A DNA stretch of 64,000 nt. Origin: Cryomorphaceae bacterium 1068 (GTDB taxonomy: Bacteria > Bacteroidota > Bacteroidia > Flavobacteriales_D > Cryomorphaceae). The notes under the pieces are model-generated. The model saw only the letters and a list, made by a program, of their open reading frames with translations. It made no database searches and had not been told where the DNA came from. This document shows positions 2,582 through 22,135 of this stretch, piece after piece. The translations under genes were made by a program, and so were the position numbers. Positions within the stretch are counted from its first letter, which is position 1. Each line of letters opens with the position of its first letter. The stretch is taken from positions 310,001-374,000 of the forward strand of contig JAPVXR010000002.1 in NCBI GenBank assembly GCA_027214385.1. Direction: 5' to 3'.

Positions 2582-3589
2582 ATGAAGTGCATCCTCTCGG
2601 TCGCCCTCTATAGTCTGTTTTTCTTTCTCTTGTCCTGTTCAAGTGATCGCTTTAGCGTCGATACGTCTAAAGTAGATTACCAACCTGAATTTCTTCGACT
2701 CGACCGAGCTATTTTTGACGAGCAGAGCAAGCTGACTCAAGAAGAGCTCACGTCTTTGACGAGTCAGTACGGCTCTTTTTTAGAGGTGTATATGGTAGAC
2801 ATCATGCAGATGCCGCCCCCGGATAACCCGATGCTTCCTGAGTTTTTAAGTCGATTTACCGGCGATCTGACCTGGCAAAAACTTCAAGCATCCGTTGATC
2901 AAATTTATCCTGATCTTTCTGCTCAGGAAGAAGTTTTGGCGGAAGCCCTTCGGGCATATTCCATCCACTTTGGAAATAAAGACCTGCCTCAGTTGGTAGC
3001 CTATAATTCCGGATTTAATGTCGGGATATTTCCATCTTCAGAATGGCTCGGTGTCGGTTTGGAGTGGTATCTGAGCCCTGAGAATGAAGTGGTAAAACAA
3101 TTGCCGCCCGATCTTTTCCCGCAATACAAACGCGACAAAATGAAGCCACAATACCTCGCGGTGAATGCCTTGAAGGGTTGGCTATTTTTCAAAAATCAAG
3201 ATTTGACAGGAGAAGACATGCTGTCTTCGATGGTGTTTAACGGAAAGATGCTTTACATCACGCGAGCCTTGATGGAAGTGACCGATGCGGACTTATTGAA
3301 TTATTCTCCTGCTCAGCTAGAGTGGGCCGAGGATTCAGAGTACGCCATTTGGACCTATTTACTGGAAAACGATTTAGTATTCTCCACCGACTTCCGTCAA
3401 ATCAACAAGATGATGAACGACGGGCCTTTCACCCCCGGAATGCCGGCCGAATCTCCCGGAGGAGTGGGCAATTGGCTGGGACTCCAAATGGTGGAGGCTT
3501 ATATGAATGAAAATGAGAACCTTACCTTGCAAGACTTGCTGGGGGCGGGCGACCGACAAATTTTAGAAACCTACAAACCGGGAAGATGA
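2582..3589 (+). CDS. gldB: Gliding motility lipoprotein GldB
   Basis: A 335-residue lipoprotein of the GldB family, required for gliding in Flavobacterium johnsoniae; its molecular role is not well defined. The N-terminus is a lipoprotein signal (MKCILSVALYSLFFFLLSC) with Cys19 as the acylation site. The middle contains the family stretch FNVGIFPSSEWLGVGLEWYLS near residues 144-165 and the C-terminal region ends GVGNWLGLQMVEAYMNEN. Its stop overlaps the start of gldC (ATGA at 3586-3589), so the two are translation-coupled. Gene pairing with gldC is typical of Flavobacteriia. Confidence 0.9.
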   Translation: MKCILSVALYSLFFFLLSCSSDRFSVDTSKVDYQPEFLRLDRAIFDEQSKLTQEELTSLTSQYGSFLEVYMVDIMQMPPPDNPMLPEFLSRFTGDLTWQKLQASVDQIYPDLSAQEEVLAEALRAYSIHFGNKDLPQLVAYNSGFNVGIFPSSEWLGVGLEWYLSPENEVVKQLPPDLFPQYKRDKMKPQYLAVNALKGWLFFKNQDLTGEDMLSSMVFNGKMLYITRALMEVTDADLLNYSPAQLEWAEDSEYAIWTYLLENDLVFSTDFRQINKMMNDGPFTPGMPAESPGGVGNWLGLQMVEAYMNENENLTLQDLLGAGDRQILETYKPGR

Positions 3590-3924
3590 GCGACGAAATC
3601 AAAAAGAAGTCAAATATCAATATTCAAGTGGGGCTGGACGAAAATCACGTGCCGCTAAAAATGAAATGGCATGCCGACGATAGCAACGAAGGCGGCGACG
3701 TAAAAGCCATGATGCTCACCATGTGGGACGAGAAGGACGACAACACCATCCGTATTGACCTCTGGAACAAAGAGATGAATGTCTTTGATATGCAGCGGTT
3801 TTTCCACCAGTCCCTGCTCACCATGGCCGATACCTATTCAAGAGCTACGGGCCAAGAAGATATTGCCAAAGAGATCAGAACCTTTGCCACTGAATTTGCG
3901 GAGAAGACGAAGATTATGTCTTGA
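3586..3924 (+). CDS. gldC: Gliding motility protein GldC
   Basis: A 112-residue cytoplasmic protein of the GldC family, with no signal peptide or membrane segment. The body contains PLKMKWHAD near residue 24, a WDEKDD-IRIDLWNKEM core and a terminal helix ending EKTKIMS. It overlaps gldB by four bases. The last 52 bases (3871-3922) are repeated at 7511-7562 with two synonymous third-position changes, so the 3' end of this gene may have been supplied by an incoming element (see findings). GldC improves gliding in Flavobacterium but its biochemistry is unknown. Confidence 0.92.
   Translation: MSDEIKKKSNINIQVGLDENHVPLKMKWHADDSNEGGDVKAMMLTMWDEKDDNTIRIDLWNKEMNVFDMQRFFHQSLLTMADTYSRATGQEDIAKEIRTFATEFAEKTKIMS
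3871..3922 (+). repeat. Direct repeat, copy 1: 3' end of gldC
   Basis: A 52-base segment identical at 50 positions to 7511-7562. Both differences (3885 T versus 7525 C; 3909 G versus 7549 A) fall at third codon positions and leave the encoded residues unchanged. Copy 1 is part of intact gldC. The repeat brackets the block that carries two T9SS cargo genes. Confidence 0.95.
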
Positions 3925-3974
3925 TTAGTAGTCGGTAGCTAGTTGATCGATTTTGGTCGGTAGATCGGGGTTTT

Positions 3975-4022
3975 GTCCCCCGCTGGCGGGGGCGGCTTCA
4001 TTGGAGCCTGCGGAAATGAAGA
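3975..4022. repeat. Palindromic intergenic (REP-like) element
   Basis: Two nested palindromes follow gldC. The first is CCCCCG (3977-3982), CTGG, CGGGGG (3987-3992). The second is CTTCATT (3996-4002) paired with AATGAAG (4015-4021). Neither is followed by a T-run. The arrangement resembles short dispersed palindromes of Bacteroidota intergenic regions, but no second copy occurs in this window, so repeat status is inference. Confidence 0.4.
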
Positions 4023-4035
4023 CGGGGGTGGACAT

Positions 4036-4065
4036 AAAAAACCGCCCCGAAATTTTTCGGCGCGG
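4036..4065 (-). terminator. Rho-independent terminator for the T9SS cargo operon
   Basis: Read on the minus strand, an 11-base stem (4055-4065 with 4042-4052, one mismatch) is followed by six T residues (4036-4041). It lies about 25 bases beyond the stop of the gene at 4091-6025. Confidence 0.6.
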
Positions 4066-4090
4066 CTCAACCTTCTTTAAGGTAAGTAAA

Positions 4091-6025
4091 TTACCGTTTG
4101 ATCATCTTTTTGGTAAGCAATTCTGTATTGGCATAAAGCGAGTAATAATAGGTGCCGGGTGCAAATGCCGATGCATCCCAACGCTCGGTGTAGCGGCCTT
4201 CGGTCAGGGTTTGGTTTACCAATACTTCGAGCACTCTTCCTTGGCTATCGCTTATCTCCAAGCGTATTTGCGCAGGCTCATTAATGGTGAAGTTGATGGT
4301 CGTCACTTCATCAAAGGGATTGGGGAAGTTTTGCTCCAACTCAATGCCGCCCGTCTCTGTACTGCCTTTTTCGGTAGGGGTGGTACCGCAGCAGTTGTTC
4401 ATCTTGCTTTGGGTAGATTGAAATGATGACATGACGGCCGTCATTTGGGTTTGCATTTCTTCGATTTGCGTGGCCTGTGCCGCCAGTTGTTCTGATAGCT
4501 CGGCCACTTGAGCTTCGAGGGCTTCGTTTTCCTGCACTTGTGCAGCCATTACGGCGTTTTGCTCTTGGAAGCCGGCTATTAGAATTGATATGAGGTCGTT
4601 GTACCTCACCGCCTTAAACTCGACCACTTCTGAGTCTGTATTACTTTCAGCATCGAAAGCAGGCGGAGTCGTAACGTCTTTTACTAATTCAGGAAGAACC
4701 TCTTCTAATTCCTGTGCGAGAATTCCGTACTCTACTCCTGAAGGCAAATAAATTCCATCAACATTTGCATACTCATATACTTTTGGCTGCAATTGACTCA
4801 AGATTTCAGTTGCATTAGCAATTGGCTCGATGTTCATTTTTAGATTTTCATCACTTTGCTGATAACCTTGTGATGCGAAAACTAAGCCTGAGAAATAACC
4901 AGCCCAATCATTATTGGCAGGATCGGCCGTTGATGGAGTAATTCGACCAAGTACACCTGCATTGAAATTGCCTCCACCTAAATCTTCATTCACATATGCC
5001 AACCCTTCAACACCAATATTGTTAAATCCTTCCCTGGCAAGTCCCGTAACGCCATAATGCACAATAGCTCCGTCAGTTGTATTCGAAAATCCCCTTACAC
5101 CATATGCCCGTCCATCATCGAAAGCTATTGCGTTTCCCCTTACACCTACCGCTACTCGAACTCTGTTGGTATAAAAATCGCCTGCAACACCCAGTTCAAG
5201 AAAAGGTCCTTGACTATTTTCAATTGTACTAACTATACCTCTTTTTATATTTATGCTGGTTCCGCTAGGCACAATTTCTTCACAATCATTTAGGAATATG
5301 GCAGCCACATTCTCCGAGTTTTCAGAAAGTGTACCTCGTAGCTGCACATCAAGCCTGGCTTGGGGCTGTCCATAAGTTAGACCAATTCCACCAGTCATTG
5401 TACTGAAGTTTCCGAGACCAACATTACCATAAGGAGTTATACGCATGGTTTCCCTACCTTCTTCTGTTGAGCTTTCGGTTTGGATGAGATCAGTGGTAGG
5501 TGAGATAAACAAGAATCTAATATTATCAGGCCCTACAGTCGATCCGGGAATATTGCACCCCCATGCAATCACCGCATCAGTAATATCACTATTATTAGCA
5601 GTGCCCGGACTTTGAAGAATTCCCGTGTAGAAAATATCTTGCCCCGCACCATAAGTGGTTCCTACATTCATCCAATCTCTGCGAAGGCCGGGAGTAATAT
5701 CATATCCCATTTGGATAATACTAAACGGCACTTGTTCAACAACGGGAAGTGTTGTGGTTTCGAATGTATTTCCATTTACTCCAAAGTACATTCTACTTGC
5801 ATTTGGAAGCAATGGTGCACCACCGTAGCCACCCCATGTGGTGCTGGTCATGCGGATTCGATTTGTGTTGTTCTGCAGGAAGTCAAGATCAGTATTTCCG
5901 CTGTCATTCCAACCTAAAAAGGCATTATTAAAGGGTACATTCGAGTCAGTAGTTGACTGAGAAAAGGAAGAACAATTTAGGAGAAGGAATAATATGAAGA
6001 GGGATAATGGTTTATAGAAATTCAT
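4091..6025 (-). CDS. T9SS cargo protein with S74 (tail-fibre type) chaperone domain and type A sorting domain
   Basis: A 644-residue secreted protein with four visible parts. (1) A signal peptide, MNFYKPLSLFILFLLLNCSSFSQ. (2) A glycine-rich beta region, residues about 25-385, without a recognised family. (3) A Peptidase_S74 intramolecular chaperone-like domain starting at SDENLK (Ser391, Lys396) and including YGILAQELEEVLPELV. (4) A heptad coiled coil of about 55 residues, then CC-containing linker and a T9SS type A sorting domain from LEQNFPNPF to KKMIKR. S74 domains in phage tail proteins trimerise the fibre and self-cleave at the conserved Ser. The start overlaps the upstream gene by four bases. 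Base composition shifts sharply near 4650 (see findings), suggesting domain shuffling. Probable function: exported, surface-attached trimeric fibre or adhesin (inference). Confidence 0.82.
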   Translation of the reverse strand: MNFYKPLSLFILFLLLNCSSFSQSTTDSNVPFNNAFLGWNDSGNTDLDFLQNNTNRIRMTSTTWGGYGGAPLLPNASRMYFGVNGNTFETTTLPVVEQVPFSIIQMGYDITPGLRRDWMNVGTTYGAGQDIFYTGILQSPGTANNSDITDAVIAWGCNIPGSTVGPDNIRFLFISPTTDLIQTESSTEEGRETMRITPYGNVGLGNFSTMTGGIGLTYGQPQARLDVQLRGTLSENSENVAAIFLNDCEEIVPSGTSINIKRGIVSTIENSQGPFLELGVAGDFYTNRVRVAVGVRGNAIAFDDGRAYGVRGFSNTTDGAIVHYGVTGLAREGFNNIGVEGLAYVNEDLGGGNFNAGVLGRITPSTADPANNDWAGYFSGLVFASQGYQQSDENLKMNIEPIANATEILSQLQPKVYEYANVDGIYLPSGVEYGILAQELEEVLPELVKDVTTPPAFDAESNTDSEVVEFKAVRYNDLISILIAGFQEQNAVMAAQVQENEALEAQVAELSEQLAAQATQIEEMQTQMTAVMSSFQSTQSKMNNCCGTTPTEKGSTETGGIELEQNFPNPFDEVTTINFTINEPAQIRLEISDSQGRVLEVLVNQTLTEGRYTERWDASAFAPGTYYYSLYANTELLTKKMIKR

Positions 6026-7029
6026 AATATGATAAGTTTAGTCGTGTAAACCTGGCCATCTCCAAGTTGACTGGTGATAAGATATATTCCACTCTTCCAG
6101 TCAGAGCAATCAATAATCACACTTGGTTCAGGAGTTTCATAAGCTTTGGATAAAACCGTTCTTCCACCAATGTTAAAGACTCTTATCTGTTTAAGCTTGG
6201 AACGCCCCGTCTGTAATACAAAGAATTCACTGGCAGGATTAGGGTAAACAGATACCAACTCTATTTCCAAAGAAGCTTTATTGCTAAGCAGACAGAAATC
6301 ATTTTCGCCACTCAAACAGACTTGATCTATGTAAAGATATGCTGCGCACTTTCCGGAATCAGCAAGTTGAACCGTATCTGTATTTAAACCATCGTAAAAG
6401 TTACCAATGGCAAGCCAATTGTAATTTTGGTCTGCTACAAAAGAACCTTGTACATGAGTCCAGCCCATCGTATCCGCGTCACTAATATCCAGATCAATTT
6501 GTGGATTATTAGTAGGGAATACCGTGGGAGTAGGAGGATCAAAAATCACTGGGTCAACAAAAAAACTTACACCAAAGCGATTTGTCCTACAGCGCCAATC
6601 TGCAAAATCACCTGAATCGAACTCAGAAATATGAGCACTGAAAGAATAAGTATTTCCAATTTCTAAAGGTGTCAAAAGCTGACAAGCTGCAAATTCCCTG
6701 TAGTCAGGCTCGGTGTGAACATACGTTATCAGACCTGTGTAGGCTTGTCCGTCAAAGGCTGATTCAAAACCCAAATAATTCGATGGAATCCCTGCGATTC
6801 CTGTACCTGAATTGTTGCAAGCGTTAAAGTAATCACCAGTACCCGAAAAACTTATCCAATCGATTACCTGAGTATGAAGTTCTGTGGAGCTTGTGGGACA
6901 ATCTTCATAGAGTTCAAAACTCTCATTGGGTATGAGATTTTGTCCAACTACACTATTGATTAATAATAAATTGAACACATAGACAAACAGAGTTTTACCG
7001 CAGCTTATTTCTATACCGGATTTGAACAT
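6022..7029 (-). CDS. Secreted protein with type A T9SS sorting domain
   Basis: 335 residues. The N-terminus has a hydrophobic export segment (KTLFVYVFNLLLINSVVGQ). It is followed by a module beginning LIPNESFELYEDCP and containing GTGDYFNACN and AFDGQAYTGL, a jelly-roll-like pattern seen in many Bacteroidota surface and OmpA-family proteins. The last 75 residues form a type A sorting domain (VYPNPASEFF ... GGRTVLSKA ... WKSGIYLI). The product should cross the outer membrane through the T9SS. It is the first gene of a two-gene operon; its stop overlaps the next start by four bases. Ligand and function are unknown. The region is AT-rich compared with its housekeeping neighbours, consistent with acquisition. 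Confidence 0.78.
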   Translation of the reverse strand: MFKSGIEISCGKTLFVYVFNLLLINSVVGQNLIPNESFELYEDCPTSSTELHTQVIDWISFSGTGDYFNACNNSGTGIAGIPSNYLGFESAFDGQAYTGLITYVHTEPDYREFAACQLLTPLEIGNTYSFSAHISEFDSGDFADWRCRTNRFGVSFFVDPVIFDPPTPTVFPTNNPQIDLDISDADTMGWTHVQGSFVADQNYNWLAIGNFYDGLNTDTVQLADSGKCAAYLYIDQVCLSGENDFCLLSNKASLEIELVSVYPNPASEFFVLQTGRSKLKQIRVFNIGGRTVLSKAYETPEPSVIIDCSDWKSGIYLITSQLGDGQVYTTKLIIL

Positions 7030-7156
7030 TTGACAGAATGAAGGTTTACTATTATTAAAATACCCAACTGCGCATGGGCTAGCGCTTCCATTTTCAAACC
7101 ACGCATAGAAAAAGCGTATAGCACGAGACTCCTTGAATCTGATGGTTTGATTGTTG

Positions 7157-7164
7157 TACTTTTG
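7157..7164 (+). promoter_or_regulatory. Candidate -7 box of a small RNA
   Basis: TACTTTTG matches TAnnTTTG exactly. A CTTG at 7132-7135 lies 21 bases upstream as an imperfect -33 element. No plus-strand gene follows, but a terminator occurs about 55-85 bases downstream. Confidence 0.4.
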
Positions 7165-7169
7165 CTACT

Positions 7170-7249
7170 TCATATATACCTCCTTTCTAATTTGCGTTGG
7201 ATTAGGTGTATTTGATCGACCCGGGGTCTCCACACCTCGGGCTTTTTTT
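7170..7249 (+). ncRNA. Candidate ~80-nt small RNA
   Basis: An orphan plus-strand transcript is suggested by the -7 box at 7157-7164 and the strong terminator at 7220-7249. Inside it, ACCTCCTTTCTA (7178-7189) equals the usual 3' tail of bacterial 16S rRNA and could pair with ribosome-binding sites. CTAAT and ATTAG flank a 9-base loop, giving a short hairpin. No coding frame of note overlaps the terminator. No known family was recognised; expression is inferred only. Confidence 0.3.
7220..7249 (+). terminator. Rho-independent terminator without an annotated upstream gene
   Basis: CCCGGGG (7220-7226) pairs with CCTCGGG (7235-7241) with one G-T pair, around an 8-base loop, followed by C and seven T. 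It is oriented for plus-strand transcription, where no gene lies upstream for several kilobases. Confidence 0.65.
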
Positions 7250-7270
7250 ATTTCTATTTGGGGTCGGGCA

Positions 7271-7515
7271 TCATCTCGTTTTGGCTAGCTCTTTTCTGAA
7301 TCTGTCGTCTAAAGTTTGCGAAAAGAAACGAGTAATAAAAGAAAACTCATTCGATAATTCTTTCAGGGGGGGGGGTAATTCCTTGATATTCAGTTGTAAA
7401 ATTCCGCTATTATTTCTGTGTTAAGCCAAGGTTTATTCTCAACGAATAATTTGTTCGTTTTCTGAATACCATCAGGCGCACTTGCATCCAAATTAAATCT
7501 CGCGGCACCGGAGAT
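7271..7515 (-). pseudogene. Possible frameshifted gene remnant
   Basis: Two minus-strand frames, each with protein-like composition, overlap near 7390-7420. One runs 7515 to 7390 and ends FVENKPWLNTEIIAEFYN. The other runs 7420 to 7271, includes ELPPPLKELSNEF encoded partly by ten C residues, and ends RFRKELAKTR. Neither has a start, and the first enters from the gldC repeat. Together they could be the 3' end of a gene broken by a frameshift and cut by the repeat junction. No family was recognised and chance reading frames are not excluded. Confidence 0.25.
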
Positions 7516-7562
7516 CAGAACCTTCGCCACTGAATTTGCGGAGAAGACAAAGATTATGTCTT
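7511..7562 (+). repeat. Direct repeat, copy 2: detached gldC 3' end
   Basis: 50 of 52 bases match 3871-3922. The gldC reading frame is kept and closes with TAG at 7562-7564, overlapping the stop codon of convergent engB. Upstream of 7511 there is no similarity to gldC, so this is only a 3' fragment. Confidence 0.95.
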
Positions 7563-8193
7563 AGTCACCCAATCGCTCTTCCTTAAAAAGCTGATTGGTA
7601 TCTGCGATAAACGACAAAATTTCTTCCCGCCCCAGGAACTTAGAGGATGAGGTAATAAATTGATTAGGAAGATCTTCCCAGTCTTGGAGCATGCGCTCAT
7701 TGTAGGCCTCGACCTTTTTGGTCAGTCCTCCGGGCTTCATCTTGTCGCATTTGGTGAAAACCATCGCGAAGGGCACGCCGTGCTGACCGAGGTAGGCCAT
7801 AAAATCCAAGTCGATGGGCTGAGGCTCGTGACGAATGTCCAGCAAAACAAACAAGCACATCAGGTTTTCCCGCTTCTTGATGTACGGGTAGATCAATCGC
7901 TGAAATTCATCGCGAATGGTGCGCGACACTTTGGCGTAGCCATAGCCTGGCAAATCGACTAGGTACCAAGCTTCATCGCTGCCCGGATAAGAAATCGTAA
8001 AGTGATTGATCAGACGAGTCTTTCCAGGTTTTCCAGAAGTCTTCGCTAGATTTTTTCTTCCCGTCAAAAGGTTAATCAATGACGACTTGCCCACGTTACT
8101 GCGCCCTACAAAAGCGTATTCGGGCATATCGCTTGGAGGTAGTTGAGTGGCAACGGTACTGCTCTTTAGAAATTCGGCCTTGACGTCAATCAT
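7561..8193 (-). CDS. engB: Ribosome biogenesis GTPase EngB/YsxC
   Basis: A 210-residue TrmE-Era-EngA-EngB-Septin-like GTPase needed for late 50S assembly. Motifs in order: G1 GRSNVGKSS near residue 31, G2 region GKTRLINHF, G3 DLPGYGYAK near residue 77, G4 TKCDK near residue 145, and G5 SSS near 178. Length is normal. It is convergent with the detached gldC fragment, which touches its stop codon. In many Flavobacteriia gldC and engB are close, supporting the view that the intervening cargo block is an insertion. Confidence 0.95.
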   Translation of the reverse strand: MIDVKAEFLKSSTVATQLPPSDMPEYAFVGRSNVGKSSLINLLTGRKNLAKTSGKPGKTRLINHFTISYPGSDEAWYLVDLPGYGYAKVSRTIRDEFQRLIYPYIKKRENLMCLFVLLDIRHEPQPIDLDFMAYLGQHGVPFAMVFTKCDKMKPGGLTKKVEAYNERMLQDWEDLPNQFITSSSKFLGREEILSFIADTNQLFKEERLGD

Positions 8194-8528: not shown

Positions 8529-9287
8529 TCAGAACTTCTTGGCCAACCAGCCATCCAGAATTTCATTGAATTCATCAGGGTGCTCCATCATCGGGGCATG
8601 GCCGCATTTGTCAATCCAAAATAACTCTGAATCAGGAATTTTTTCGTGAAACTCCTCTGCCACGTCAGGTGGAGTGATGGTATCATCTTTTCCCCAAATC
8701 AAGCACACGGGCATGGTGTAATTCTTCAGGTCATTGCGCATGTTGTGACGGATGGCAGATTTGGCCATAGCCAAAACCTTGATCAACTTTGTTCGGTCTT
8801 GAACCAAGTCGAAAGTCACGTCTACCAATTCATCTGTTACCATTTCGGGATCGTAAAACGTCACCGCGATTTTCTTGCGGATGTAGTCCTTGTCTTCCCT
8901 TCTGGGAAAAGAGCCACCGAAGGCATTTTCATAGAGGCCGGAACTACCCGTCAAGATCATGGCTTTGATCAATTCGGGGCGCCTTTTGGTCAAAACCAAA
9001 CCAACGTGACCACCGAGTGAGTTTCCCAAAAGTAATACGTCCTTCAGCCCCTTGAACTCCATAAATCCAATCACGAAATCTGCCAGACTTCCCACCCCGG
9101 TTTTAACCAAGGGTAGATCGTATAGTGGCATCATGGGGACGATGACCCGATGCGTCTTTTTGAAGTGAGAAATAACTCCGTTGAAATTGCTCAATGCACC
9201 GAACAATCCGTGCAAAACCAGTAGCGGCTGTCCTTCACCTTCGTCGATGAATTTGTACTTGCCTTCTTCTTTTATGTTTAATTCCAT
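8529..9287 (-). CDS. Alpha/beta-fold hydrolase
   Basis: 252 residues using the start at 9287 (MELNIKEEG), which follows a -7 box. The oxyanion turn HGLFG lies near residue 26, the nucleophile elbow GNSLGGH near 92-98 (Ser94), the acid probably Asp in WGKDDTITPP near 200, and the catalytic His in CGHAPMMEHP near 227. These are the complete Ser-Asp-His triad of the alpha/beta hydrolase superfamily, closest in pattern to the meta-cleavage hydrolase/haloperoxidase-type group. Substrate unknown. In Flavobacteriia such a gene often sits between engB and mraZ, as here, without known functional link. It is cytoplasmic, with no signal peptide. Confidence 0.82.
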   Translation of the reverse strand: MELNIKEEGKYKFIDEGEGQPLLVLHGLFGALSNFNGVISHFKKTHRVIVPMMPLYDLPLVKTGVGSLADFVIGFMEFKGLKDVLLLGNSLGGHVGLVLTKRRPELIKAMILTGSSGLYENAFGGSFPRREDKDYIRKKIAVTFYDPEMVTDELVDVTFDLVQDRTKLIKVLAMAKSAIRHNMRNDLKNYTMPVCLIWGKDDTITPPDVAEEFHEKIPDSELFWIDKCGHAPMMEHPDEFNEILDGWLAKKF

Positions 9288-13402: not shown

Positions 13403-14869
13403 ATGAAGTTGCTGAAAGACATATTGTATCAGTCGCGAATCAAGCACGTTAAAGGCACAACCAACGTGGCGGTGGAAGCCGTGGTGTTTGATTCTCGGAA
13501 GGTTGTGGGTTTCTCGCTCTTCGTAGCTGTGAGAGGCGATCAGGCCGATGGCCATCTATTTATCGATAAGGCTATTGAGCTGGGAGCTGTGGCCATCGTT
13601 TGTGAAGAACTCCCCGAAGAATTACGTGAAGAGATCACTTACGTTCAGGTAGAGAATAGCCGAGAAGCATTGGGGCACTTGGCCGCCAATTTCTTTGACA
13701 ATCCTTCCGGTGAATTGAAGCTGGTTGGTATTACCGGAACCAACGGTAAGACGACCACGGCCACTATGCTTTATCGTCTTTTCAAGCTTTTGGGCAAGAA
13801 AGTGGGTTTGATATCGACAGTCGAAAATCGAATCCAAAACGAGGTGATCGGTGCGACTCATACCACGCCCGACCCTGTTCAGCTCAATGAGCTTCTGCGA
13901 AGAATGGTAGATGCCAAATGCGGTTACTGCTTTATGGAAGTGAGCTCTCACGCTTTGCATCAGCACCGTGTGGCAGGAATTGAATTTGCTGGTGGAGTCT
14001 TCACGAATATTTCGCGAGACCATTTGGATTACCACAAGACTTTCGACGAATACATTGCCGCAAAAAAGCTGCTCTTTGATATGCTTCCTTCCCCTGCCTT
14101 CGCTTTGGTCAATCTCGACGATCGTCAGGGAGAAATCATGCTGCAAAACTGCAAAGCAGGAGATCAAAAAACCTATGCTTTGAAGGCAATGGCCGATTTT
14201 AAGGCCAAGGTCATTGAAAATCTCTTTTCAGGCTTACACGTCAATTTGGATGGCATGGATCTGTACTCCAAATTGGTAGGTCGATTCAATGCGTACAATA
14301 TTCTTTGTGTGTATGGCGCAGCTCGTTTGCTCGGAGAAGACAAGATGGACGTTCTTACGGCATTGAGCAATATCAATCCGGTGGCCGGTCGATTTGAATT
14401 GATTAAAAGCACCGAAGGCGTGAGTGCCATAGTAGATTATGCCCATACGCCTGATGCCTTGGAGAATATACTTGCAACGGTCACTGAGATTCGTACCCAC
14501 AATGAGCAAGTCATCACAGTGGTTGGCTGCGGTGGAAATCGTGACAAGGGAAAGCGGCCTGAGATGGCCTCCATCGCTTGCAAATACAGTGACCGCGTTA
14601 TCCTTACTTCTGACAATCCGCGAGATGAGGATCCACAAAGCATTGTAAATGATATGAAGGTCGGAGTAGATCCGGTTGATTTCAAAAAGACCAATACCAT
14701 TCTTGATCGAGCTGAAGCCATTCGTATGGCTTGCGGACTCGCTCAAGCAAACGATATAGTTCTCATTGCCGGAAAAGGCCATGAGAAGTACCAGGAAATT
14801 AAAGGTGAGAGGTTTCCATTTGATGATCTCGCCACTGTTATGGAATCCTTTAAAGAGTTGAAGAGCTAA
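13403..14869 (+). CDS. murE: UDP-MurNAc-L-Ala-D-Glu:diamino acid ligase
   Basis: 488 residues from the ATG at 13403, one base after the ftsI stop codon. Three Mur ligase domains: UDP-binding N-terminus with FDSRKV, central ATPase with [14 protein letters not shown] near residue 112 and TTPDP, and C-terminal ligase domain with [11 protein letters not shown]. The DNPRDE motif near residue 405 is the one that selects meso-diaminopimelate rather than lysine, so the peptide should contain mDAP (family knowledge). Ends by sharing the A of its stop TAA region with the mraY start. Confidence 0.96.
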
Positions 14870-20759: not shown

Positions 20760-22135
20760 ATTTAAACGGCTTACATAAGGTCTATTTTTTTGGAATCGGG
20801 GGCATCGGCATGAGTGCTATCGCTCGGTATTTCAATCAAATGGGATTGGATGTTGCCGGTTATGACCGAACGTCCTCACCGCTCATCAGTGAGTTGGAAA
20901 AAGAGGGAATTGAAGTGAATTTTAACGCATCGCCCGAGGCGGTTCCTTCTAGATTCATAGACTCACCACTTGACCGGGTGTTGTTTATTTACACCCCAGC
21001 CATACCAGCGAGACATGAGGGATTGGGTTTTTGTAAGAGCCGCGGATTTAACGTAATCAAGCGCTCTCAAGCCTTGGAGGCGATCGTTGCCGAAAAAGAC
21101 ACGTATGCCGTGGCCGGGACACATGGAAAAACGACTACTTCTTCCATGGTCGCTCACCTTCTTAATCAAGGAAATCACAACGCGACGGCCTTTCTGGGAG
21201 GCATAGCCACAAACTTCAAATCGAATTTAGTGGTAGCCAAAGACTCTACTAGGACCATAGTGGAAGCTGATGAATACGATCGTTCATTTTTGAGACTGAG
21301 ACCTTCTGTAGCAGCTATTACTTCCGTCGATGCGGATCATTTGGACATTTATGGAAATGCCGAAAGTCTGCGTTCAAGTTTTGAGCAATTCGCTCAACTC
21401 GTGCCGAAAGATGGATTACTCCTCCTTTGTGAGGGAATCGAAATGAATGTGGAAGCACCCGTTTGGTCCTACGCAGTAGAAAGTGAGACTGCCGACCTTA
21501 CCACCAAGAACTTACGGGTGGAAGATGGAGCATACTGTTTTGAAGTGTGGCTCAAAGGAGAGAAGCTGGGAGAAATCGTGATGCATTATCCGGGAAGGCA
21601 CAATGCTGAAAATGCACTGGCCGCCATCGGTATGGCATTACATGCCGGAGTAGACTGGAACGAAATTGCCGAAGGGCTTAAAACCTTTTTGGGCGTAAAG
21701 CGACGCTTTGAATACCAAATAAGGCGAGAAAATCGCGTATACATTGATGACTACGCGCATCATCCTACTGAGATCACGGCTTGTGTGAATTCTGCTAAGG
21801 AATTGTATCCCGAAAAGAGAATAACAGGAGTCTTCCAGCCTCACCTATATAGCCGCACACGCGACTTTGCTGATGAATTTGCCGAGAGTCTTTCTGAGTT
21901 GAATGACCTTTTGCTGATGGATATTTATCCCGCTCGAGAAGAACCCATTGAAGGAGTAGACTCACAAATGCTGCTGAATAAAGTACGCTTGGTGAATAAA
22001 AAGTTGGTAGACCGCGAAAACCTAGTGGAAGAAGTTCTGAGATTGAGCCCTGAAATACTCCTCACTATGGGTGCAGGAGATATAGACCGAATGATCGAAC
22101 CTTTAAAAAACGCTCTCGATGAAAAAGACGAATAG
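20756..22135 (+). CDS. murC: UDP-MurNAc:L-alanine ligase
   Basis: 459 residues. The only sensible start is TTG at 20756, which overlaps the murG stop (TTGA), because the Rossmann motif FFGIGGIGMSAIA begins just nine codons later. MurC adds L-alanine to UDP-MurNAc. ATPase loop AGTHGKTTTSSM near residue 121, EADEYDRSFL near 169, VDADHLDIYG near 194 and the C-terminal DDYAHHPTEI near 326 are present. Normal length; operon position between murG and ftsQ is standard. Confidence 0.96.
   Translation: MNLNGLHKVYFFGIGGIGMSAIARYFNQMGLDVAGYDRTSSPLISELEKEGIEVNFNASPEAVPSRFIDSPLDRVLFIYTPAIPARHEGLGFCKSRGFNVIKRSQALEAIVAEKDTYAVAGTHGKTTTSSMVAHLLNQGNHNATAFLGGIATNFKSNLVVAKDSTRTIVEADEYDRSFLRLRPSVAAITSVDADHLDIYGNAESLRSSFEQFAQLVPKDGLLLLCEGIEMNVEAPVWSYAVESETADLTTKNLRVEDGAYCFEVWLKGEKLGEIVMHYPGRHNAENALAAIGMALHAGVDWNEIAEGLKTFLGVKRRFEYQIRRENRVYIDDYAHHPTEITACVNSAKELYPEKRITGVFQPHLYSRTRDFADEFAESLSELNDLLLMDIYPAREEPIEGVDSQMLLNKVRLVNKKLVDRENLVEEVLRLSPEILLTMGAGDIDRMIEPLKNALDEKDE

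Follow-up and report, generated by a model that had tools for sequence, protein, structure and literature searches.

The gldC–engB interval

In the marine flavobacterium Cryomorphaceae bacterium 1068, a block of genes encoding proteins with type IX secretion system (T9SS) sorting domains lies between the gliding gene gldC and engB, and the last 52 bp of gldC occur twice, once on either side of the block. The stretch of DNA analysed, hereafter the window, is 64,000 nucleotides (nts) long (contig JAPVXR010000002.1, positions 310,001 to 374,000), and its own numbering is used below. The intact gldC (3586 to 3924, + strand; 112 amino acids (aa), stop TGA) scores above the cut-off of TIGR03515 (GldC) and matches PF19937, while its convergent neighbor engB (7561 to 8193, − strand) encodes a YsxC/YihA GTPase (TIGR03598). 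The intervening segment (3923 to 7510; 3,588 bp) carries two cargo genes on the − strand. The longer one (4091 to 6025; 644 aa) couples Peptidase_S74, a tail-fibre chaperone-like domain, with a T9SS type A sorting domain (PF13884, PF18962, TIGR04183; PHROG tail fibre), and its product resembles phage tail-fibre tips. The shorter, here called T9b (6022 to 7029; 335 aa), joins a CBM4-like jelly-roll to a T9SS sorting domain (Por_Secre_tail; PF18962, TIGR04183). The jelly-roll comes from a poor predicted model, with a predicted local distance difference test score (pLDDT) of 64, whose best solved Foldseek neighbor is a CBM4 module (E 1.5e-7); the tail matches T9SS sorting domains, and T9b proteins have in common a motif such as NLVPNxSFEEYxxCP. 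Both cargo proteins may serve in surface adhesion. A scan of open reading frames (ORFs) over 3923 to 7510 found no integrase-sized frame besides the two cargo genes, no tRNA lies at or near the insert, Rfam returned no match, and the two cargo genes had none in PADLOC. The G+C content dips to about 39% over 6000 to 7500, versus about 43–49% in the flanks.

The two direct copies of the gldC 3′ end (3871 to 3922 and 7511 to 7562, + strand) are identical at 50 of 52 positions, and both mismatches are synonymous third positions (TTT/TTC and ACG/ACA). Their stops differ: copy 1, the end that gldC now uses, closes with TGA, and copy 2 with TAG. The latter, a displaced gldC end with its own stop (7511 to 7564), overlaps through its TAG (7562 to 7564) the engB stop (7561 to 7563). 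Its abrupt start marks 7510/7511 as the putative point where imported DNA was joined illegitimately to the resident gldC 3′ end, analogous to a junction resolved at another locus (L285, described below). Across the whole 4.32-Mb genome the repeat has only two copies (E 5e-18), the next hit being a 26-nt chance match. In a scan of 878 kb of the same genome for direct repeats (minimum length 30 bp, spacing up to 15 kb), no second pair attained 95% identity; what else came up was a single family of intergenic repeats and a handful of weaker pairs. The preliminary description of this DNA thus proved accurate on the 52-base recurrence, its two silent changes, and the TAG of copy 2 touching the engB stop, as well as on the contents between the copies, namely two T9SS cargo genes, a possible RNA, an ORF remnant, no integrase ORF, and the G+C dip. 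The scattered repeat family that it named as a possible refutation is countered by the genome-wide count of just two copies.

A same-genus genome, the Flavobacteriales metagenome-assembled genome ALOHA_ZT_11 (JAKVAV010000005.1; G001), presents the site without the insert. There gldC, with a single 3′ end, lies directly against engB, its stop TAA (4859 to 4861 of locus L039) overlapping that of engB (4858 to 4860), and in the window the stop of the displaced end and that of engB overlap in an identical register. Moreover, gldC up to 3870 joined to the displaced end aligns to G001 at 219.5, versus 173.5 for the filled site. The shared register and the better alignment of the joined end indicate that the displaced end sits where gldC ended ancestrally and that 3,588 bp were added. 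The segment was therefore inserted at the gldC 3′ end, in a previously empty site of the kind that the preliminary description had proposed to look for. Copy 2 would then be the resident end and copy 1 the donor's; the G001 orthologue has the copy-1 state at both differing sites. In other relatives with the convergent pair, the gap between gldC and engB is mostly 3–108 bp. Four gaps are wider (424–2,098 bp); no T9b/S74 cargo was seen in them, and the largest (G003) contains an FkbM-type methyltransferase and a membrane-protein-like ORF. No insert comparable to that of the window was seen between gldC and engB in relatives. On these grounds the interval is rejected as a recurrent cargo hotspot, and the earlier suggestion that surface-protein genes may be exchanged at gldC is not supported.

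Displaced ends at other genes

T9b and S74 genes occur at many loci in the order, and 69 loci with a T9b gene were examined. Some direct repeat brackets the gene at 18 of the 69, mostly as repeat arrays or paralogous cargo; three loci besides the window repeat the gldC pattern, such that, with gldC, four unrelated genes have duplicated ends around T9b/S74 cargo. In G004 (L120), the terminal 338 bp of glgP, stop codon included, are found again at 14093 to 14430, beyond T9b and S74 genes, and an IS21-type recombinase pair lies beyond the displaced end. Beside DUF4301 in G006 (L123), 42 bp of the pgm 3′ part recur beyond a T9b and two S74 genes; DUF4301–pgm is an empty, or nearly empty, convergent pair in G001, G002, and G007. 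Finally, the third locus (L285 in G068) repeats 152 bp at 8984 to 9135, made up of ~58 bp from the very end of a transglutaminase-like gene and ~94 bp downstream of it; the copy lies beyond an S74 gene, a DDE transposase within the cargo, and a T9b gene, and the convergent neighbor encodes a META-domain protein. Compared by eye, the four repeats (52, 338, 42, and 152 bp) share no core. All four genes read intact into the insert, the boundary expected from homology-facilitated illegitimate recombination (HFIR), in which one end is homologous and the other illegitimate.

The nature of the other boundary is clearest at L285, where the junction cuts a cargo gene. The far side of this insert ends in a 203-bp S74 fragment, 98% identical to the intact S74 gene of the block. 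The S74 sequence is left after CGCAA, one extra untemplated base follows, and then the displaced gene end begins, with no microhomology. This is a non-homologous junction as in HFIR, and judged from its sequence the break looks illegitimate rather than like an att site.

Two intervals hold different cargo in different genomes. DUF4301–pgm bears T9b/S74 genes in G006 and, in G004 (L177, 3708 to 5934), a different T9SS protein, immunoglobulin-like, together with a second ORF (334 aa). The interval between rpmH and an ATP-binding cassette (ABC) transporter bears a T9b and an S74-like gene in G000 (contig C8) and the end of an S74 gene beside the transporter in G003, and measures 149–163 bp in G002, G005, G006, and G007. 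Both intervals look like exchange sites. Neither G000 C8 nor DUF4301–pgm in G004 yielded a displaced end. The S74-like gene of the C8 pair (L112, 9006 to 9965) is devoid of S74 and sorting domains and abuts the start of the ABC transporter, as if truncated.

Divergence between intact and displaced ends

The pairs of ends differ chiefly at silent positions. Between the two glgP ends there are 19 silent codon changes, one of them the stop, versus 4 non-silent ones; 20,000 neutral simulations produced a minimum of 7 non-silent changes, never as few as observed. Pooling the four cases with stops excluded gives 25 synonymous versus 5 non-synonymous changes, where neutrality would yield about 23% synonymous (P ~4e-12), and the bias persists without glgP (P 2e-4). 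In the three cases where both copies reach their stops, these differ yet stay stops. This signature of purifying selection implies that the ends of each pair diverged mostly as working gene ends, in different lineages, and were joined afterwards. The same 25:5 ratio is what HFIR predicts for DNA arriving from a diverged relative. Conversely, stops that differ but are kept, in conjunction with this ratio, are not the result expected from local duplication followed by drift.

Origin of the insert

The gldC insert and the three related scars are probably, if without great assurance, explained by import of linear DNA through one homologous crossover and one illegitimate join. Linear DNA from a related strain or species, bearing a gldC end followed by the T9SS cargo block, would have recombined into the genome. 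On one side, an ordinary homologous crossover would have occurred upstream within gldC; on the other, the free end of the imported DNA would have been joined illegitimately to the resident gldC at a point 52 bp short of the stop. The resident stretch between crossover and join would thereby have been replaced, such that gldC now finishes with the imported end, while the resident last 52 bp would have been stranded past the cargo, still touching engB and free to decay. Related genomes would owe their scars at glgP, pgm, and the transglutaminase-like gene to the same process. A crossover combined with an illegitimate join accounts for the variable repeat length, the abrupt start of the displaced copy, the silent divergence, the differing targets, and the lack of an integrase. 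We infer the donor, the linear import, the foreign identity of copy 1, and any selection for surface variation. More generally, the scars suggest that surface-protein genes enter by recombination anchored in conserved neighbors, without an integrase.

Several points weigh against this account. Its direction, with the intact end foreign and the displaced end resident, is presumed from a comparison of one genome per species. Within the L285 repeat, the copies agree fully over the intergenic/META portion and have diverged in the part from gene A, possibly reflecting more than one step, and the pgm fragment is missing the terminal ~100 bp, which requires a later deletion. The association with T9b/S74 cargo, at 4 displaced ends in 0.94 Mb of T9b/S74 loci versus 0 in ~1.5 Mb of control, is a modest, suggestive enrichment, as the control set (1.54 Mb) is unmatched and includes the window, itself not an independent draw. 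The control set gave no hits besides the repeat of the window itself and a family of intergenic repeats.

The main rival, unlikely but to be taken seriously, is Campbell-type integration by plain homologous recombination, in which a circle, or a larger tandem merodiploid that deletion later trimmed, would have brought the cargo with a donor gene end and crossed over in the gene end common to both, leaving a copy on either side. Such an event would likewise need no integrase and would produce exactly two direct copies around the cargo. At L285 the whole gene–intergenic–gene junction is duplicated (152 bp), and a 75-bp identical tract in it resembles a crossover tract. However, the far boundary at this locus lies within a cargo gene and carries an untemplated base, such that a circle would demand an extra illegitimate step, and homology of 42–52 bp is short for RecA. 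Less probable still is a tyrosine integrase acting in trans at gene 3′ ends, with the repeats as attL and attR and the element supplying a replacement end. Elements like e14 at icd replace the 3′ end of a gene and leave mostly synonymous differences. The present scars resemble those of e14/icd-type elements in the duplicated 3′ end, the mostly silent divergence, and the intact gene, and direct repeats do bracket the insert. Unlike such elements, which have an integrase and a fixed core, the cargo block has no integrase ORF and no tRNA nearby, four different genes are targeted with repeats of 42–338 bp and no evident common core, and the L285 junction falls inside a cargo gene. Site-specific att recombination was therefore rejected as first choice. 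The preliminary description had called the repeat att-like, a label that differing targets and repeat lengths, no evident core, no integrase, and an arbitrary L285 junction speak against; its idea of a replacement end, in contrast, gains support from the empty site, the same architecture at the three other genes, and the synonymous-biased divergence.

Local and technical origins are weaker contenders. A staggered break or template switch in a single cell might have copied in the cargo from elsewhere and duplicated the last 52 bp of gldC, with drift thereafter. The two copies are 96% identical, and for gldC on its own, two of two changes being synonymous has a ~5% chance under neutrality, insufficient to discard such an event. 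The glgP counts, beneath every simulation, and the combined P nonetheless render it quite improbable: local duplication with drift is excluded for glgP and unlikely overall, retaining some chance for gldC alone. That the assembly chimerically joined two strains at the end of gldC is scarcely credible. The genome is a draft in 59 contigs and the named relatives are metagenome-assembled, but the same architecture recurs in four separate genomes, the contigs are long (508 kb for the window, 702 kb for L285), and the cargo is nested between native flanks on both sides. Transposition predicts a fixed-length, initially identical duplication, whereas the observed length varies and the divergence is synonymous-biased; a long target-site duplication, suggested by repeats of 42, 52, and 62 bp, was accordingly rejected on the 338 bp of glgP with its silent divergence.

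Other features of the insert and cargo loci

A repetitive extragenic palindromic (REP)-like intergenic unit (3974 to 4031, + strand) has four further copies of 78–81% identity, located at or close to contig ends (G000 C30:70-124, C18:98-152, C6:202993-203047, and C6:203181-203235). Upstream of T9b, a non-coding stretch (7124 to 7374) is 80% identical to the region upstream of the second T9b/S74 pair, on contig C8 of G000 (21000-21248; L112 11000-11248), and had no match in 39 other genomes; the proteins of the pairs downstream are merely ~30–38% identical. Fold prediction places within it a possible RNA with a strong terminator (7220 to 7248, + strand; hairpin 7220–7241 plus a T run). The + strand of the stretch folds unusually well (z −3.1), and its terminator hairpin is identical to that of the C8 counterpart, so that it may encode an antisense RNA over the T9b leader. 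Between this stretch and the displaced end, a truncated reading frame (orphan fragment X; 7393 to 7509, − strand; 39 codons plus stop) is apparently cut by the junction. It was traced to no homologue, with no source gene among 100 genomes and none in Pfam, and could be a chance ORF.

Repeats of other kinds also accompany such loci. A terminator-like element of ~60 bp occurs at several positions in two species, mostly directly downstream of S74 genes (L126, 6173 to 6234 and 9348 to 9409; contigs of G008 and G019); it is a conserved cargo 3′ end and might itself provide homology. As the cargo's own terminator, with copies after several S74 genes in G008 and G019, the L126 repeat was rejected as a target-site duplication, as was that of L184, which belongs to a REP-like family. 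At L272, 37 bp of a gene 3′ end (5417 to 5453) are repeated past one neighbor gene of another type (6298 to 6334), a possible displaced end that does not bracket T9SS cargo. Three regions of G045 contig 2 (L252, L271, and L283) have T9b genes flanked on both sides by long arrays of ~60-bp units, which look like TCCGTGTAAACGGTGATTC...GGACGCCAGGTTGGCGTCCCTA.

Comparison with known systems and implications

The closest parallel comes from Vibrio, where displacement of type VI secretion system (T6SS) effector–immunity modules has been attributed to HFIR (PMC5361080). There, too, modules enter beside a conserved anchor with one homologous and one illegitimate end, and resident sequence is pushed downstream as an orphan. 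The Vibrio orphan is an immunity gene of the same system that is probably kept by selection (PMC5361080), whereas here a piece of a housekeeping gene's 3′ end is orphaned and T9SS surface-protein genes form the cargo. C-terminal displacement in Rhs/CdiA, with its orphan tips, is similar in that a conserved gene receives a new 3′ end while the old one lies downstream (PMC3150448; cited in PMC5361080). In those systems the exchanged end is the variable functional part of the protein, whereas here the gene product stays as it was and its gene end serves purely as a handle. Replacement flexible genomic islands of aquatic prokaryotes, whose borders show peaks of silent substitutions, share the surface-related cargo, exchange by homologous recombination, and mostly synonymous boundary differences (PMC4033161). 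Their exchange is two-sided and homologous and leaves no duplicated end; the present event adds sequence and is illegitimate on one side. Different surface cargo at the same site, as expected of such islands, was seen at DUF4301–pgm (G006/G004) and rpmH–ABC (G000/G003), not at gldC–engB.

One might conceive of T9SS surface-protein blocks (jelly-roll plus S74 tail-fibre-like genes) as an integrase-free exchange system in Flavobacteriales, in which conserved housekeeping genes, for the most part convergently paired, would offer the homology handles and every arrival could be read from the gene end it displaced, although this broader proposal is tentative and rather doubtful. To our knowledge there is no settled explanation for how Bacteroidota acquire and exchange their numerous T9SS surface proteins when obvious mobile elements are lacking. 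The displaced 3′ ends of conserved genes are simple, testable scars: each shows where and on which side an arrival took place and how old it is in relative terms, and its divergence from the intact end gauges, within one genome, how far the donor had diverged. Should the link with T9b/S74 cargo hold, such scars would provide a way of cataloguing the movement of surface genes and of examining whether pressure from phages or grazers is behind it; if the exchange-system proposal is true as well, the traffic of surface genes between species would become mappable genome-wide.

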